Below, one piece after another: positions 35,438 to 43,514 of a DNA stretch of 64,000 nucleotides. Position 1 is the first letter of the stretch, and the number at the start of each line of letters is the position of its first letter. Source of the DNA: Thiothrix subterranea (GTDB lineage: Bacteria; Pseudomonadota; Gammaproteobacteria; Thiotrichales; Thiotrichaceae); assembly GCF_016772315.1 (NCBI RefSeq), contig NZ_CP053482.1, positions 1,798,001 through 1,862,000 on the forward strand. The letters are read 5' to 3'. The translations under genes were made by a program, and so were the position numbers. Under the pieces are notes generated by a model. That model did no database searches. It was not told the origin of the DNA and saw only the letters and a program-made list of their open reading frames with translations.

Positions 35438-37534
35438 ATGACTGACTTAACACTTTACCGGAATATCGGCATTTTTGCCCACGTTGACGCGGGCAAAACC
35501 ACCACCACAGAACGTATCCTGAAATTAACAGGTAAAATCCATAAAATTGGTGAAGTGCATGATGGTGCGACTACCACTGACTTCATGGTGCAAGAACGTG
35601 AACGCGGGATCACCATCCAGTCGGCTGCGACTACCTGTTTCTGGAAAGACCACCGCTTTAACATCATCGACACCCCTGGGCACGTTGACTTCACTATCGA
35701 AGTTTACCGTTCACTGAAAGTGTTAGATGGCGGTGTGGGCGTATTCTGCGGTTCTGGCGGTGTTGAACCACAATCAGAAACCAACTGGCGTTATGCCAAT
35801 GATTCTGGCGTTGCCCGTGTCATTTTAGTTAACAAACTCGACCGTTTAGGTGCTGATTTCTACCGCGTTGTAAAACAGGTTGAAGACGTACTCGGCGCAC
35901 GCCCATTAGTCATGGTGCTGCCAATCGGTACAGAAGACAACTTCTCCGGCGTGGTTGACCTGTTGACCCGTAAAGCATGGGTCTGGGATAACTCCAGCGA
36001 CCCACTCAACTACGTGATCCAAGACCCGCCAGCAGACATGGCTGAATTGGTTGAAACTTGGCGCGAAAAGCTGATCGAAACTGCCGTTGAGCAAGACGAT
36101 GATGCAATGGAAATGTACCTCGGTGGTGAAGAGCCGCCAATGGATGTTATCAAGCGTTGCATTCGCAAAGGCACTATCGGTCTGGACTTCTTCCCAACGT
36201 TTGCAGGTTCTGCCTTCAAAAACAAAGGCATCCAGTTGGTATTGGACGGGGTTATTGACTACCTGCCTAGCCCGATTGAAGTCAAACCACAGCCTGAAGT
36301 TGATCTGGAAGGCAACCCAACGGGTGAATTCGCTATCGTTGATGCGAACCGTCCACTGCGTGCTTTGGCGTTCAAAATCATGGATGACAAATACGGCGCG
36401 TTGACCTTTACCCGTATTTATTCTGGTACGCTGAAAACCGGCGACACCATCCTCAACACTTTCACCGGCAAAACCGAACGGGTTGGGCGTATGGTGGAAA
36501 TGCACGCGGATGATGCAAACTCCATTGACTTCGCGCAAGCCGGTGACATTATCGCACTGGTTGGCCTGAAAAACGTACAGACTGGTCATACTTTGTGTGA
36601 CCCGAAAAACCCAGCGACACTTGAACCGATGGTCTTCCCAGATCCGGTCATCTCCATCGCTATCTCACCGAAGAACAAAGCCGGTGCAGAAAAAATGGGT
36701 ATCGCCCTCAACAAAATGGCGAAAGAAGACCCATCTTTCCGCATTGAAACTGACCAAGAAACCAATGAAACCATCCTCAAAGGCATGGGCGAATTGCACT
36801 TGGACATCAAAGTCGACATCTTGCTGCGTACTCACGGGGTAGAAGTTAACGTGGGTAAACCACAGGTTGCTTACCGCGAATCCATTACCCAGCGCGTTGA
36901 AGACAGCTACACCCACAAGAAGCAGTCCGGTGGTTCTGGTCAATACGGTAAAATCGACTACACCATCGAACCGGGTGAACCGGGTACGGGTTATGTGTTT
37001 GAATCCGTGGTCGTTGGTGGTTCCGTACCACGCGAATTCTGGCCTGCGGTCGACAAAGGTTTCAAAGACAGCATGGGCAAAGGCCCACTCGCTGGCTACC
37101 CTGTGGTTGACGTGAAATTCACCTTGCGCGAAGGTGGTTTCCACGCGGTTGACTCCTCAGCCATTGCGTTTGAAATTGCGGCGAAAGGCGGCTTCCGTCA
37201 AACCATGCCGAAAGCTGGCCCGCAAATTCTTGAGCCGATCATGAAAGTTGACGTATTCGCACCGGATTCCCACGTGGGTGACGTAATCGGTGACTTGAAC
37301 CGTCGCCGTGCGATGATCAAATCCCAAGATGCCGCGCCTATCGGTGCACGTATCAAGGCAGAAGCTCCGTTGTCTGAAATGTTTGGTTACATCGGTTCAC
37401 TGCGTACCATGACTTCCGGTCGCGGTCAGTTCTCGATGGAATTCTCACATTATGCGGCTTGCCCGAAATCGGTTTCCGATCAGGTTATCAAAGAAGCGCA
37501 AGAGCGTAAGAAAGCGTTGGAAGCTGAGAAGTAA
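35438..37534 (+). CDS. fusA2: Elongation factor G, FusA2 type
   Basis: A 698-residue translational GTPase. The G1 motif [16 protein letters not shown]3 DTPGHVDF and G4 NKLD are intact, followed by EF-G domains II-V. Departures from canonical EF-G (start [19 protein letters not shown] in place of the usual RNIGI context, [16 protein letters not shown]) fit the second EF-G of Vibrio and other gammaproteobacteria. It is alone rather than in the str operon (no rpsL, rpsG or tufA nearby), supporting a second EF-G. It would act in translocation or ribosome recycling. Followed by a strong terminator at 37558. Confidence 0.88.
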
Positions 37535-37557
37535 GATTCTCGGTTTTTGACAGCATT

Positions 37558-37591
37558 AAAAAGGGTGAGGCGGTAACGTCTCACCCTTTTT
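37558..37591 (+). terminator. Rho-independent terminator after EF-G
   Basis: AAAAAGGGTGAG and CTCACCCTTTTT form a 12-bp stem around a 10-base loop, ending in a T run, 24 bases after the EF-G stop. The A-rich left flank means it could also stop transcripts from the ybiT remnant on the other strand. Confidence 0.85.
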
Positions 37592-37610
37592 CACATCAGG
37601 CCAACTGGCG

Positions 37611-38778
37611 TTAGTCTAAGCCTTGGCTGCTCAAGTAGTCTTCGTAAGTCCCCCGATAATCCACAATCGTGCCGTCACCTTTCATGTCAAAAATGCGCGT
37701 CGCCAATGAGCCAACGAACACACGGTCATGCGAGACAAACATTAATGTACCGTCGTAACGATCCAGACCACCGTTGAGGGATTCGATGGATTCCATGTCC
37801 AAGTGGTTAGTCGGTTCGTCCATCAGCATGACATTGGTGCGCGACAACATCATTTTGCCGAAAATCATCCGCCCTTTTTCACCACCCGACAGTACGCGCA
37901 CTGGCTTTTTCACGGTATCGCCGCCGAACAGCAAACGCCCCAATGTGCCACGGTTTTGGGTTTCAGCGTCTTCACCTTCGTAGCCGCTTTTGCGCACGTA
38001 ATCCGCCATCCAATCGGTGAGGCTGATGTCGCTTTTGAAATCGTCTTCGTGGTCTTGCTCATAGCTAGAAATGCGTACTTTTTCAGCCCATTTAATGCTG
38101 CCTTTCTGCGGTTGCAATTTGCCTTCGAGCAATTTGAGCAGGGTGGTTTTACCCACGCCATTTTCGCCGATAATGCCGACTTTTTCACCCGCTTCAATCG
38201 CAAAGCTGAAGTTATTGATCAGTGGCTTATCCATGCCGTCATAAGCAAACGTGAGGTTGTTGACCTCGACGGCGAAACGGTGCAAGCGTTCTTTTTCGTC
38301 GTACTCGAAGCGAATCCACGGGTATTGGCGGCTGGAGGGCTTGATGTCTTCGGGCTTGAGTTTGTCGATCAACTTGCGGCGGCTAGTGGCTTGTTTTGCC
38401 TTGGATTTGTTGGCAGAGAAGCGCCGCACGAAGTCTTGCAATTCCAAAATGCGGTCTTTCGCCTTGGCGTTGGCATTGGCTTGGCGTTCACGCGCTTGGG
38501 TGGAGGCTTCCATGAAGTCGTCGTAGTTGCCGGAGTAAATCTGGATTTTACCGAAGTCCAAATCCGCCGTATGCGTACACACTTGGTTCAAAAAGTGGCG
38601 GTCATGCGAGATAATGATCATGGTGGAATCGCGGTTATTGAGCGTTTCTTCCAACCAGCGGATGGTGTTGATGTCGAGGTTGTTGGTCGGTTCGTCCAGC
38701 AACAAAATGTCAGGGTTGGCGAACAGGGCTTGGCACAGCAAGACGCGCAATTTCCAGCCGGGGCGACTTGGCTCATCG
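37611..38778 (-). pseudogene. ybiT: 5'-truncated copy of ybiT (ABC-F ATPase)
   Basis: Colinear over about 1168 bases with the 3' 1169 bases of the intact gene at 41019-42641, from the stop codon to the codons around residue 150. It includes the end of ABC domain 1 ([11 protein letters not shown]) and all of domain 2 ([11 protein letters not shown]). The start and first Walker A are missing, one base is deleted near 38765, and homology ends at GCTCATCG (38771-38778). Its 379 readable residues differ from the intact copy at only five positions although silent differences are many. It abuts the restriction-modification genes and marks their left border. Confidence 0.88.
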
Positions 38779-38834
38779 CGGGAATAATTATCTAAGGTCA
38801 GTATTCATTCATTGTGTAATAATTCCACTTTTAT

Positions 38835-39617
38835 ATGAATGGATTATTTATCATGGCGAATGACTCAAAACGTCTAATTATTGAACTCTTCAATCGAAAC
38901 GTCAGAGGAAAATATGCCGATATTAGCAATGCAAATAGTTCTCACGATGGGAGTGAAGGGCATTGGTTAGAGCGTCAAATGGACATTTCTCCCAATTCTA
39001 ATAATGATGCTGATTTATTTGGATATGAAATGAAAAAACAGACCAAAAGTAAAACAACTTTCGGCGATTGGTCAGCCGATTATTATCTTTTCAAAGATGA
39101 TGAGAAATATCCTAAATTTTCGAGAGATGATCATTTTCTACCTATTTTTGGCAAGCCTAATATAGAGAAAAATAATCGTTATTCTTGGTCTGGTGAACCT
39201 TGTCCAAAAATATCAAAATACAATTCATTTGGTCAAAGATTAACTGTTGATGCTGGCAGCAATATTATTGCTGAATATCATTATCAATATGACCAGCGAT
39301 CAAATAAAAATAAAATAGTTCCTATTGATATGCAGGTGAATAATTTGAAAATAGCACAATGGAGTAAACTAAATTTAAAAAGAAAGGTTGAAAATAAATT
39401 CAATCAAAATGGCTGGTTTCGTTGCGAAAAAAATGAACAAGGTTGTTATCAATCAATAGCTTTTGGCAAGCCTATTAATTTCGACTCTTGGATAGCCTTA
39501 GTTAAATCTGGCATTATTTTTTTTGATAGTGGAATGTATCAAGGAAATAAGCGCCATTACTCACAATGGCGTGCTAATAATAACTTATGGGATAGCTTAA
39601 TTATTGATAGAATATAG
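38835..39617 (+). CDS. Type II restriction endonuclease, MutH/MvaI-BcnI-like
   Basis: A 260-residue AT-rich gene. The catalytic motif is D58-x6-E65-x-K67 (DADLFGYEMKK), with a preceding GSEGHWLE at 40-46, the spacing of MutH and the monomeric enzymes MvaI and BcnI (LlaMI/ScrFI-like). Such enzymes cut CC(N)GG-type sites, so a similar target is likely, but it is not proven. It is 38 bases before the C5 methyltransferase in the same direction. An internal ATG at 38853 is an alternative start. Base composition is unlike the flanking ybiT copies, a sign of transfer. Confidence 0.78.
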   Translation: MNGLFIMANDSKRLIIELFNRNVRGKYADISNANSSHDGSEGHWLERQMDISPNSNNDADLFGYEMKKQTKSKTTFGDWSADYYLFKDDEKYPKFSRDDHFLPIFGKPNIEKNNRYSWSGEPCPKISKYNSFGQRLTVDAGSNIIAEYHYQYDQRSNKNKIVPIDMQVNNLKIAQWSKLNLKRKVENKFNQNGWFRCEKNEQGCYQSIAFGKPINFDSWIALVKSGIIFFDSGMYQGNKRHYSQWRANNNLWDSLIIDRI

Positions 39618-39654
39618 TAAATTCTAAGCAATGGATTGTTTATAATATAATTCA

Positions 39655-40965
39655 ATGTTAGTATCGCAGGGACTAAAACCGGATAAGTGGTGCGATATGG
39701 AATATGAACAGCGTATAGACAATCCTAGTTTGGATATTCAACATAAGCGTGAAGCGTTAGGATTAAGTTACACTGAGTTTGCAGCATTAATAGATTTAAA
39801 GAGTAATGGCGAACGTACTATTCGTGGATGGGAAAAGGGTGAACATAAGCCTTTTCCTAATAAATTAAAAGAAATCAATAACTTGAATATTGATGCACCT
39901 TTTGGTTTTTTGGAAGGCAAGGAAACATTTCGCTTCATTGATTTATTCGCGGGTATTGGAGGTATTCGTTTACCCTTTCAAGAGTTGGGTGGTAAGTGTG
40001 TGTTTACTTCAGAATGGGATAAATTTGCCCAAAAAACCTATGCAGCCAATTTTGGTGAAATGCCACAGGGCGATATTACGCAAATTGCATCTGAAAATAT
40101 TCCAGATCATGATGTTTTGTTGGCTGGTTTTCCTTGCCAAACTTTTTCTCAGGCAGGTTTGAAAAAAGGTTTTAATGATACACGCGGTACGATGTTTTTT
40201 GAAATACAACGTATTTTGGTTGCAAAACGTCCTAAAATGTTTTTATTAGAAAATGTTAAGCAATTACGTGGACACGATAAAGGTAGAACACTAAGAACCA
40301 TTTTAGACATATTGGAAGGAAAACATGAGCAAGAGATTCCTCATGACGTTCCTTTGAGTAAAGATGCTCGTGATGCACTTTCACAAAAACTCAATTATAA
40401 AGTTGAAATGCGCGTATTGCGTGCGGCTGATTTTGGCATTCCTCAAAATAGAGAACGTGTATTTATTGTTGGTTTCGATCGTGATTATTTTAAAAGTGAT
40501 ATTGATTCAGCCAGTTTTTTTGAATGGTGTAAGCCAGCATTAGTACCAACAAGGGTAGGTAGTATCCTCGAAAATAATAATGAGCTTTTGCATCGAGAAG
40601 ATACCTATACCATTTCAGATAAATTATGGGCAGGGCATCAAAAGAGAAAAGCAGAGCATAAAGTCAAGGGTAATGGCTTTGGTTATTCATTAGTAAAAAA
40701 AGATACTGCATATACCAATACGATTAGTGCTCGTTATTATAAAGATGGTTCAGAAATTCTGGTTGATCAATCACATTTAAATAAAAACCCACGTAAACTT
40801 ACACCGCGTGAATGTGCCAGATTACAAGGGTTTCCTGAAAATTTTATTGTGGATGCTGTGTCTCAAGGGCAGATTTATAAACAATTTGGTAATTCTGTTT
40901 GTGTTTCCGTGGTACGCGCCGTTGCTCAACAAATGATAAAAAGCTTGCAGAATACCGTATTGTGA
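39655..40965 (+). CDS. DNA (cytosine-5) methyltransferase with N-terminal HTH
   Basis: A 436-residue m5C methylase. Residues 28-75 form an XRE-like helix-turn-helix (K-R-E-A-L-G-L-S-Y-T-E-F-A-A-L-I). Motif I FIDLFAGIGG is at 94-103, motif IV GFPCQTFSQAG with catalytic Cys161, motif VI LENVKQL, motif VIII QNRERVF, motif IX RECARLQGFP and motif X KQFGNSV. It resembles Dcm/M.EcoRII/M.ScrFI enzymes. The HTH probably lets it repress its own promoter, protecting the cell before the nuclease builds up. An ATG at 39691 is an alternative start. Confidence 0.92.
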   Translation: MLVSQGLKPDKWCDMEYEQRIDNPSLDIQHKREALGLSYTEFAALIDLKSNGERTIRGWEKGEHKPFPNKLKEINNLNIDAPFGFLEGKETFRFIDLFAGIGGIRLPFQELGGKCVFTSEWDKFAQKTYAANFGEMPQGDITQIASENIPDHDVLLAGFPCQTFSQAGLKKGFNDTRGTMFFEIQRILVAKRPKMFLLENVKQLRGHDKGRTLRTILDILEGKHEQEIPHDVPLSKDARDALSQKLNYKVEMRVLRAADFGIPQNRERVFIVGFDRDYFKSDIDSASFFEWCKPALVPTRVGSILENNNELLHREDTYTISDKLWAGHQKRKAEHKVKGNGFGYSLVKKDTAYTNTISARYYKDGSEILVDQSHLNKNPRKLTPRECARLQGFPENFIVDAVSQGQIYKQFGNSVCVSVVRAVAQQMIKSLQNTVL

Positions 40966-40977
40966 TAGTGGAAAACT

Positions 40978-41012
40978 GGCTGGCAGTGGTATTAATAACT
41001 TCACTGCCAGCC
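40978..41012. terminator. Hairpin at the end of the R-M operon
   Basis: GGCTGGCAGTG and CACTGCCAGCC form a perfect 11-bp stem, 13 bases after the methylase stop and just before the ybiT stop. It lacks a long T tail, so it may act in both directions or stabilise RNA ends. It is not present beside the truncated ybiT copy. Confidence 0.55.
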
Positions 41013-41018
41013 CGTGAA

Positions 41019-42641
41019 TTAATCCAACCCTTGGCTGCTCAAATAATCTTCGTAAGTACCACGGTAATCCACAATCGTGCCGTCGCCTTTCATGTCGAAA
41101 ATGCGCGTCGCCAATGAGCCAACGAACACACGGTCATGCGAGACAAACATTAATGTGCCGTCGTAACGATCCAGCCCGCCGTTGAGGGATTCGATGGATT
41201 CCATGTCCAAGTGGTTAGTCGGTTCGTCCATCAGCATGACGTTGGTACGGGAGAGCATCATTTTGCCGAAAATCATCCGCCCTTTTTCACCACCCGACAG
41301 CACGCGCACCGGCTTTTTCACGGTATCGCCGCCGAACAGCAAGCGCCCCAATGTGCCCCGGTTTTGGGTTTCCGCATCTTCACCTTCGTAGCCGCTTTTG
41401 CGCACATAGTCCGCCATCCAATCGGTGAGGCTGATGTTGCTTTTAAAATCGTCTTCGTGGTCTTGCTCGTAAGTCGAAATACGTACTTTTTCCGCCCACT
41501 TGATGCTGCCTTTTTGCGGCTGCAATTTGCCTTCGAGCAGTTTCAGCAGGGTGGTTTTACCCACGCCGTTTTCGCCGATAATGCCGACTTTTTCACCCGC
41601 CTCAATGGCGAACGTGAAGTTTTTGATCAGTGGTTTGTCCATACCGTCGTAGCCGAAAGTGAGGTTGTTGACCTCGACGGCGAAACGGTGCAGGCGTTCT
41701 TTTTCGTCGTACTCGAAACGAATCCACGGGTATTGGCGGCTGGAAGGCTTAATGTCTTCCGGCTTGAGTTTGTCGATCAGCTTGCGGCGGCTAGTGGCTT
41801 GTTTTGCTTTGGATTTGTTGGCAGAGAAGCGCCGCACGAAGTCTTGCAATTCCAGAATGCGGTCTTTCGCCTTGGCGTTGGCATTGGCTTGGCGTTCACG
41901 CGCTTGAGTGGATGCTTCCATAAAGTCGTCGTAGTTGCCGGAGTAAATCTGGATTTTACCGAAGTCCAAATCCGCCGTATGCGTACACACTTGGTTCAAA
42001 AAGTGGCGGTCATGCGAGATGATGATCATGGTGGAATCGCGGTTATTGAGCGTTTCTTCCAACCAGCGGATGGTGTTGATGTCGAGGTTGTTGGTCGGTT
42101 CGTCCAGCAACAAAATGTCGGGGTTGGCGAACAGGGCTTGGCACAGCAAGACACGCAATTTCCAACCGGGGGCAACTTGGCTCATCGGGCCATTGTGCTG
42201 TTCAATAGGGATGCCCACCGCCATCAGCAATTCACCGGCACGCGATTCGGCGGTGTAGCCGTCCATTTCCGCGAACTGCCCTTCGAGTTCCGCCGCCCGC
42301 ATGTAATCGTCTTCGGTGGCTTCCATATTGGCGTAAATCGCGTCCTTGGCGGACATGACTTTCCACATTTCCTCGTGCCCCATCAGCACCACGTCCAGCA
42401 CGCGCACGTCTTCAAAACCGAACTGGTCTTGGCGCAAATAGGCGATGCGTTCGTGCGGGTCTTTGGACACGTTACCCGCTGTTGGCTCTAATTGCCCACA
42501 GAGGATTTTCATGAAGGTGGATTTGCCGGAGCCGTTTGCCCCGATCAAGCCATAGCGGTTGCCGTCGCCGAATTTGACGGAAACGTTATCGAATAGCGGT
42601 TTAGCACCGAACTGAATGGTGACATTGGCAGCAACTAGCAC
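41019..42641 (-). CDS. ybiT: ABC-F family ATPase YbiT, intact copy
   Basis: A 540-residue ABC-F protein close to E. coli YbiT. It has two ABC domains: Walker [10 protein letters not shown] near 35-43 and GENGVGKTT in domain 2, DEPTNNLD and DEPTNHLD Walker B motifs, and the charged linker ([11 protein letters not shown]) between. ABC-F proteins act on the ribosome and regulate translation rather than transport. This is the functional copy, with its own start; its last 1169 bases are duplicated at 37611-38778. It is 39 bases from the Fic gene in the same direction. Confidence 0.93.
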
Positions 42642-42680: not shown

Positions 42681-43439
42681 TTACTGTAGCACTTTTGGCG
42701 TTCCTAAAACATGCCAGTAGGGGGAGAAACTTGCTTTCACGCACGCACTAATCAGGGCAATGAAGTGGCTGTAATCGTGGTCAACGTGCGCCTGATCAAG
42801 GGCTTCGTAGTACGCCAAGCGTTTTTCGACGGGTAAGACGGCGGGTGGAAAACCGGACTTCATCAGCTCAAGGTTCATCAAGAGACGTGCGGTGCGCCCG
42901 TTACCGTCAACAAATGGGTGAATTTTTACAAAATCGCCGTGCAAACGTGCCGCGCGTTCGACGGGGTGTAGGGTCGTTGCCGCCGTTTCATACCAATGGA
43001 TCAATGCCTGCATCTGTTCGGGGACTTGCAAGCAATCGGGTGGGGTGTGGCGTGCGCCGCTGATAATCACATTCAAACTGCGATAACGTCCGGCGTTGTC
43101 GTCGTCGATATTTTTGAGCACCAAGCGGTGAATATTGCGGATTTGCCATTCGGAAAATGGCTCGGCATTGGCGACGATTGCCATGACGTAATCAATCGCA
43201 TCCCGATGATTGATCGCCTCAAAATGTTCGCGTAATAGCTTGCCACCAATAGTAATGCCTTCCAGCACCACTTTGGTTTCCAACAGAGTCAGCGTGTTGC
43301 CTTCGATAGCGTTGGAATGGTATGTCCAACGCAACACTAAGTCCTCTTGCAGGTTGCGCAGCAGGAATTGCGGCAGTGGACGATAGGTGTCTAGCCGCGC
43401 TTTGAGTGCATCGAGTTCGGTGAAATCCAAGCTATTCAT
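42681..43439 (-). CDS. Fic family protein (class II, self-inhibited AMPylase)
   Basis: About 252 residues. The Fic motif HPFVDGNGRTAR starts at residue 174 and has the catalytic His and the anion-binding GNGR. An N-terminal inhibitory motif SNAIEG is at 42-47, so it is class II, held off by its own helix. It should transfer AMP to a protein hydroxyl; the target is unknown. The start at 43439 is chosen as the Fic fold begins there; an earlier in-frame start at 43514 would add a 25-residue tail. It is upstream of ybiT. Confidence 0.88.
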   Translation of the reverse strand: MNSLDFTELDALKARLDTYRPLPQFLLRNLQEDLVLRWTYHSNAIEGNTLTLLETKVVLEGITIGGKLLREHFEAINHRDAIDYVMAIVANAEPFSEWQIRNIHRLVLKNIDDDNAGRYRSLNVIISGARHTPPDCLQVPEQMQALIHWYETAATTLHPVERAARLHGDFVKIHPFVDGNGRTARLLMNLELMKSGFPPAVLPVEKRLAYYEALDQAHVDHDYSHFIALISACVKASFSPYWHVLGTPKVLQ

Positions 43440-43514
43440 GGTTTGCTCGCATGGGATATAACATTCACTGCATATGAGAGCGTGGTTCGCAGCTAAAATT
43501 GAGAAATCAGGCAC

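Follow-up and report, generated by a model that had tools for sequence, protein, structure and literature searches.

The locus and its genes

We analysed a 64,000-nucleotide stretch of the Thiothrix subterranea genome (hereafter the window; contig NZ_CP053482.1, positions 1,798,001 to 1,862,000, or G000:C1:1798001-1862000), which belongs to a 4.08-Mb assembly in 4 contigs, against 15 other genomes of the same genus (congeners), among them the sister species G009. The subject is a restriction-modification (R-M) gene pair that lies between a truncated and an intact copy of a gene which we take to be ybiT. From left to right the genes are EF-G (likewise a presumed name), truncated ybiT, endonuclease, methylase, intact ybiT and fic. 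The truncated copy (37611..38778, minus strand) lacks its 5' part and retains the 3' 1168 bases. The intact gene lies on the same strand; its 3' part (41019..42187) matches the truncated copy and its 5' part follows at 42188..42641. Coordinates, gene order and colinearity are as given in the initial annotation of this DNA: 1168 bases of the truncated copy align with 1169 of the intact gene, a single 1-bp gap making up the difference, and the homology ends sharply on both sides, at the stop codon and at GCTCATCG. Against the ABC-F ATPase model PRK15064, which has a curated cut-off of 762 bits, the intact copy reaches 912 bits. As the annotation held, the host thus retains a whole ybiT. No other long ybiT match occurs in the genome: of 12 matches, the remaining 10 span 33-108 bases (E 8e-11 to 9e-4).

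The endonuclease gene (38835..39617, plus strand, GC content 0.32) encodes a Type II enzyme of the LlaMI family, with a match to PF09562 (LlaMI) across almost the whole profile (E 4e-64) and a match to PADLOC REase_II; no match was found among solved structures. The adjoining gene (39655..40965, plus strand, GC content 0.37) encodes a C5-cytosine DNA methyltransferase with an N-terminal extension, matching PF00145 and HhaI-like structures. The arrangement is thus that of a LlaMI-type Type II system, a LlaMI-family endonuclease next to a C5 methylase. Related endonucleases were examined at 23 loci in named genomes, and at 22 of these the sequence retrieved also contains a homologous methylase, which indicates that the two genes travel as a unit. 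For a related Psychrobacter R-M system, a specificity of CCNGG is predicted (PMC3346939); by analogy with this prediction, the present pair might have the same specificity. The R-M segment has a GC content of 0.35 versus 0.49 for the window. Neither an integrase nor a recombinase was found in the insert, where the endonuclease and methylase are the sole open reading frames of at least 100 aa lying wholly between the ybiT copies; the insert thus lacks this mark of an integrase-mediated island at a gene 3' end. On the left, ybiT sequence (ending in GCTCATCG) gives way to DNA upstream of the R-M genes (starting with CGGGAATAATT) at 38778..38779. On the right, a hairpin-like spacer (40966..41018) separates the methylase stop codon from that of intact ybiT and differs from the flank of the resident allele.

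The empty site in the sister species

G009 carries the locus in its empty state, in the order EF-G, terminator gap (97% of 76 bases), one ybiT, fic (98.6% identity) and priA. Only the terminator separates EF-G from ybiT in that genome, and the ybiT 5' flank is nearly the same as in the window. This is the empty site that the initial annotation had predicted, with the EF-G terminator, one ybiT and fic. The corresponding resident neighbours in the window are EF-G (35438..37534, plus strand), the intergenic terminator region of 76 bp (37535..37610) and fic (42681..43514, minus strand). Each of the 15 congeners has a single ybiT match (E 1e-50), and none of them, G009 included, has an endonuclease match at E 1e-8. 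Two ybiT copies in a genome that lacks the R-M genes, the finding named in the annotation as refuting its reading, were therefore not seen. The R-M genes of the window thus stand between direct repeats of a host sequence that is single-copy in the relative. Methylase matches at E 1e-60 occur in 4 of the 15 congeners, with 48-55% identity and at other places; G009 has no match to the window methylase at this threshold and has three other C5-methylase matches. Outside G009 and the window's genome the gene past the ybiT stop codon varies, a 603-610-aa gene being, as we read these loci, common to four congeners (G005, G011, G012, G015).

EF-G is only 87.9% identical between the window and G009, while the adjoining fic and priA are 97-99% identical. 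Judged by this difference, the low identity may be a sign of a separate recombination at EF-G.

Divergence and kinship of the two ybiT copies

The pair is colinear but not near-identical, and the phrase 'colinear over 1168/1169' of the initial description, which gives no identity, should not be taken in that sense: 71 of the 1168 aligned sites differ between the copies (93.9% identity), and 62 of these are third codon positions. Differences are nearly all synonymous, with a non-synonymous divergence (dN) of 0.0073 and a synonymous divergence (dS) of 0.31 between the copies. Intact ybiT is as far from G009 (dS 0.31), while the truncated copy is closer to it (dS 0.19). Such a pattern is that of genes which diverged as functional alleles in different lineages, at the interspecies level and under purifying selection. 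The copies still differ near the stump end (positions 1102, 1135, 1147 and 1156) and share no identical run longer than 98 bases, hence no stretch of the kind that a recent in-genome duplication should leave.

Compared with G009 ybiT across the shared segment, the truncated copy has 43 differing sites (96.3% identity) and the intact copy 68. In a three-way comparison, truncated and G009 agree against intact at 47 sites, intact and G009 at 22, and truncated and intact at 19, while all three differ at 2. With five near congeners as outgroups, five shared-derived sites unite truncated ybiT with G009 (positions 4, 7, 496, 604 and 616) and none support either other pairing; with 13 outgroups the counts are 2, 0 and 0. 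At position 4, beside the stop codon, G occurs in the truncated copy and G009 alone of 17 rows (G004 is gapped), and the intact copy lacks it. Trees were built from 16 of the 17 rows, the most distant congener (G008) being left out. The tree for the entire shared segment places the truncated copy as sister to G009 (99/99), and the approximately unbiased (AU) test rejects a clade of truncated and intact copies over positions 1-1168 (P-value 0.0063). Taken together, the evidence for kinship of the truncated copy with G009 appears good in sum and rests mainly on the first 750 bases.

The intact copy falls inside a clade of near congeners (ten-row group, 100/99), so the donor of its 3' part would be a congener. 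Its difference from G009 is 7.2% over positions 1-750, 3.3% over 751-1169 and 4.0% over 1170-1623, compared with 1.4% for fic. The foreign character of the 3' part would therefore be clearest in the first 750 bases (92.8% identity to G009); the crossover back to resident DNA is not placed. At positions 1-1145 the intact copy has 46 private changes and the truncated copy 21, of which 20 are synonymous and 1 is non-synonymous, where 75.5% would be expected to be non-synonymous if unselected (transitions weighted twofold). Since the changes found only in the truncated copy are almost all synonymous, the cut is recent, that is, young relative to the split from G009; by our own arithmetic, at most about 3-4 substitutions would postdate truncation.

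Origin of the insert

The lineage divergence, the sister position of the stump to G009 and the absence of the position-4 state from the intact copy favour reading the ybiT pair as a resident and a donor allele. On the best reading of the sequences, the truncated copy would be the resident allele and both outer flanks resident, with the intact 3' part and the R-M genes foreign. We consider it highly probable that the intact 3' part came with the R-M genes from another lineage, and we favour, with less assurance, their entry into this genome in one anchored step rather than as a ready-made unit. In such a step, the source of the donor fragment would be a congener outside our sample, with the R-M genes situated immediately past its ybiT stop codon. 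On the fic side the fragment would have been joined by homologous recombination with host ybiT; on the EF-G side it would have been joined inside host ybiT, 1168 bases from the stop codon, without long homology and so presumably by a non-homologous route. The host would gain the R-M genes together with a full-length ybiT, in frame and with a 3' part of donor origin, and its own 3' 1168 bases would be left behind as a stump, with no need for duplication of host DNA. One edge of the foreign DNA lies in long homology: next to the R-M genes, the intact copy continues into a full-length ybiT with homology to the resident gene. At the other edge, ybiT sequence changes abruptly to R-M sequence after GCTCATCG; a join with little or no homology is presumed there. 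Uptake may have been by transformation or by another route.

Several results weigh against this account. The AU test does not reject a clade of truncated and intact copies on positions 1-750 (P-value 0.20), although bootstrap values for truncated with G009 are 100/98 there, nor on 751-1168 (P-value 0.48) or 905-1168 (P-value 0.30). The last shared-derived site uniting the stump with G009 is at position 616, so these sites make the stump G009-type only up to about that point. A donor with the R-M genes beside ybiT was not found: an endonuclease match at E 1e-8 occurs in 1 of 56 other genomes (G027, 62% over 83 residues), and the 23 related endonuclease loci in named genomes show 49-61% identity, bar one of 71% over only 41 residues, with no recognised record of the same genus among them; the wider search matched four plasmid records and no phage record. 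Finally, the genome encodes homologues of ComEC and DprA, but among 14 control genomes these families match in 10 and 11, respectively, so their presence does not show competence. Near the DprA homologue, at a distance of no more than about 5 kb, are two genes for C5 methylases (G000:C1:1990720-1995873, L106).

The same data bear on other explanations. The donor might already have held a truncated ybiT/R-M/ybiT unit, formed there by a true insertion with long target duplication, and the whole unit, or a circle excised between its repeats, might then have moved in by ordinary homologous recombination within ybiT. We regard this as unlikely, though it is the strongest competitor. It dispenses with a non-homologous step in this host and explains the two sharp edges, and the AU test leaves 751-1168 and 905-1168 unseparated. 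Within the last 166 bases of the stump, G009 agrees with the intact copy at three substitutions (1003, 1102 and 1147) and the gap, versus two sites (1135 and 1156) at which it agrees with the truncated copy, so origin may change near the stump end. However, shared-derived sites place at least the initial ~616 bases of the stump with G009, and no such unit was found. The same last 166 bases differ from the intact copy at five sites, all third codon positions, which implies that these ends diverged as coding sequence.

A true long target duplication in this lineage, as the initial annotation proposed, would have to be followed either by replacement of the intact 3' part from another lineage or by unusually fast divergence, and we hold it to be improbable. 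The architecture fits the published pattern of R-M insertion with long target duplication, as outlined in the parts of PMC3031569 and PMC1643837 considered here, and on sub-segments the AU test does not reject truncated with intact. But the replacement would be a second event, ending between the R-M genes and the ybiT stop codon; otherwise, change in the functional copy would have run at about double the rate of the stump (46 versus 21 private changes at 1-1145). We therefore retain insertion of the R-M genes from the annotation and not the second copy as a target duplicate, given the sister position of the truncated copy to G009 and the AU result over the shared segment. A local target duplication in this genome is, with the sub-segment caveat, disfavoured by the divergence, the tree and the AU test over 1-1168. 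An assembly artefact or a two-strain chimaera seems very improbable indeed: the listed contamination is 1.57%, but the chromosome is one 4.04-Mb contig, the outer flanks on both sides match G009, and similar partial gene copies occur at another gene (uvrA, below) in 8 of 16 genomes. A doubled assembly in particular is unlikely because the copies diverge at 71 sites. One anchored step thus remains our preferred account of the R-M genes at ybiT.

Methylase loci of the genus and partial uvrA copies

The initial annotation had also proposed that other R-M loci of the genus be searched for similar flanking duplications. We chose 60 methylase loci from large contigs (40 C5 and 20 N4/N6, out of 67 and 50 matches, respectively), excluding the target locus. 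Centre-spanning direct repeats of 150 bp or more were present at 8 of 60 methylase loci, compared with 3 of 40 control loci, and repeats of at least 80 bp with a gap of 0.8-6 kb at 6 of 60 loci versus 16 of 200 control centres (within 6 of 40 control loci). The 60 loci include two overlapping pairs (2.5 and 5.5 kb in common), and one ancestral locus, present in two species, accounts for two of the six hits. Flanking repeats were hence discarded as a rule for R-M loci of this genus, there being no enrichment over controls.

A few further loci were noted. An R-M-like pair common to T. subterranea and G009 (G000 L129:7713-10043 and G009 L135:7582-9952), an N4/N6 methylase of 415 aa with a 230-aa gene that we assume to be its partner, sits between an intact gene, presumably sulfotransferase-like, and a 205-219-bp copy of its 5' end. 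The 5' tree at this locus is without resolution and neither supports nor opposes the account given for ybiT. In G015 (G015:C1:507945-511325; L202, L205, L206) the same presumed sulfotransferase-like gene is split by about 2.8 kb and its parts overlap by 9 query bases, as after transposition. A C5 methylase region in G003 (L116:3999-12385) is flanked by a 100% identical direct repeat of 1140 bp; the repeats are possibly insertion sequences.

One hit of the repeat scan led to a gene that we take to be uvrA. Partial copies lie near intact uvrA in 8 of 16 genomes (G005, G009, G004, G013, G002, G006, G012 and G003; L231-L239, L212), with up to four in one genome. Fourteen pieces pass a filter of at least 150 bp and at least 79% identity, with weaker self-similar stretches dropped, and ten of them start within 5 bases of the 3' end and vary in length. 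Identity to the intact copy of the same genome ranges from 83.5% to 98.7%. Nine pieces are better matched by something other than their own intact uvrA (two by less than 0.3 points, one by another stump in the same genome), one matches equally well either way, and four (one in G004, three in G013) are best matched by their own intact copy, as local duplicates would be. Two adjacent G013 pieces are probably one stump. Three of the four G005 pieces are inverted and lie on the other side of uvrA, and the simple picture leaves these unexplained. The cargo that separates these pieces from intact uvrA is varied: G003 and G006 share a C5 methylase and a 362-aa protein (91% identical over 2546 bases), G005 and G009 share a block of other genes, and G013 carries YD-repeat genes, as judged by reading the sequence. 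G006 uvrA is 92.4% identical to that of G003 and 94.5% to that of G012, while the identity between its ybiT and that of the window is only 85%, which suggests that this uvrA was imported.

The partial uvrA copies suggest that the same route may serve other cargo. As a tentative generalization, possible although we do not count on it, conserved genes present in single copy (ybiT, uvrA) could offer integrase-free docking sites at their 3' ends in this genus, at which cargo brings the end of the donor allele and the resident end is left as a stump. One acquisition after another might then be read from the layers of stumps, and some of the long target duplications published for R-M systems might be such donor/resident pairs.

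Comparison with known systems

Insertion of R-M genes with long target duplication was reportedly described in Helicobacter pylori by Nobusato et al. in 2000. As presented in the sections of PMC3031569 and PMC1643837 at hand, it is an established pattern of R-M insertion. Like the H. pylori cases as they are sketched there, the ybiT locus has an R-M system between two direct, colinear copies of host sequence and an empty site in a relative; unlike in that model, the copies do not look like one duplicated target, since they differ by about 6% and one of them belongs with the gene of the sister species. This offers a simple sequence test for the entry of mobile R-M systems, in which each flanking copy is compared with the allele at the empty site. 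Should the two prove to be donor and resident alleles rather than duplicates, no special mechanism of R-M transposition would be required, and long target duplication could arise as a side effect of normal DNA exchange among relatives.

Joining that is homologous on one side and non-homologous on the other is published as homology-facilitated illegitimate recombination (in the part of PMC3240628 considered; see also the corresponding part of PMC5361080); compared with that work, the event at ybiT is deduced from a genome rather than observed. PMC3784515 was set aside as a parallel, the duplications in the portion concerned being much larger. Among the literature matches listed, no account of the present locus appears, which is a weak negative. 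In Vibrio cholerae, the excerpted text of PMC5361080 proposes anchored import for arrays of orphan immunity genes of the type VI secretion system, with old genes displaced and kept in layers and alleles that do not cluster by genome. Those arrays carry effector/immunity pairs, whereas here an R-M pair lies at ybiT and varied cargo at uvrA. A further counterpart is the PabI-family R-M locus of H. pylori strain ELS37, for which PMC4615327 proposes one homologous and one non-homologous junction, with a 1577-bp duplication as the result. The same pair of junction types would be present at the R-M locus described here, where a housekeeping gene flanks the R-M genes. Overall, the anchored mechanism is already in print and has been proposed once for an R-M locus; on the sequence comparisons given above, the ybiT locus would add a phylogenetic case to it, not a new mechanism.

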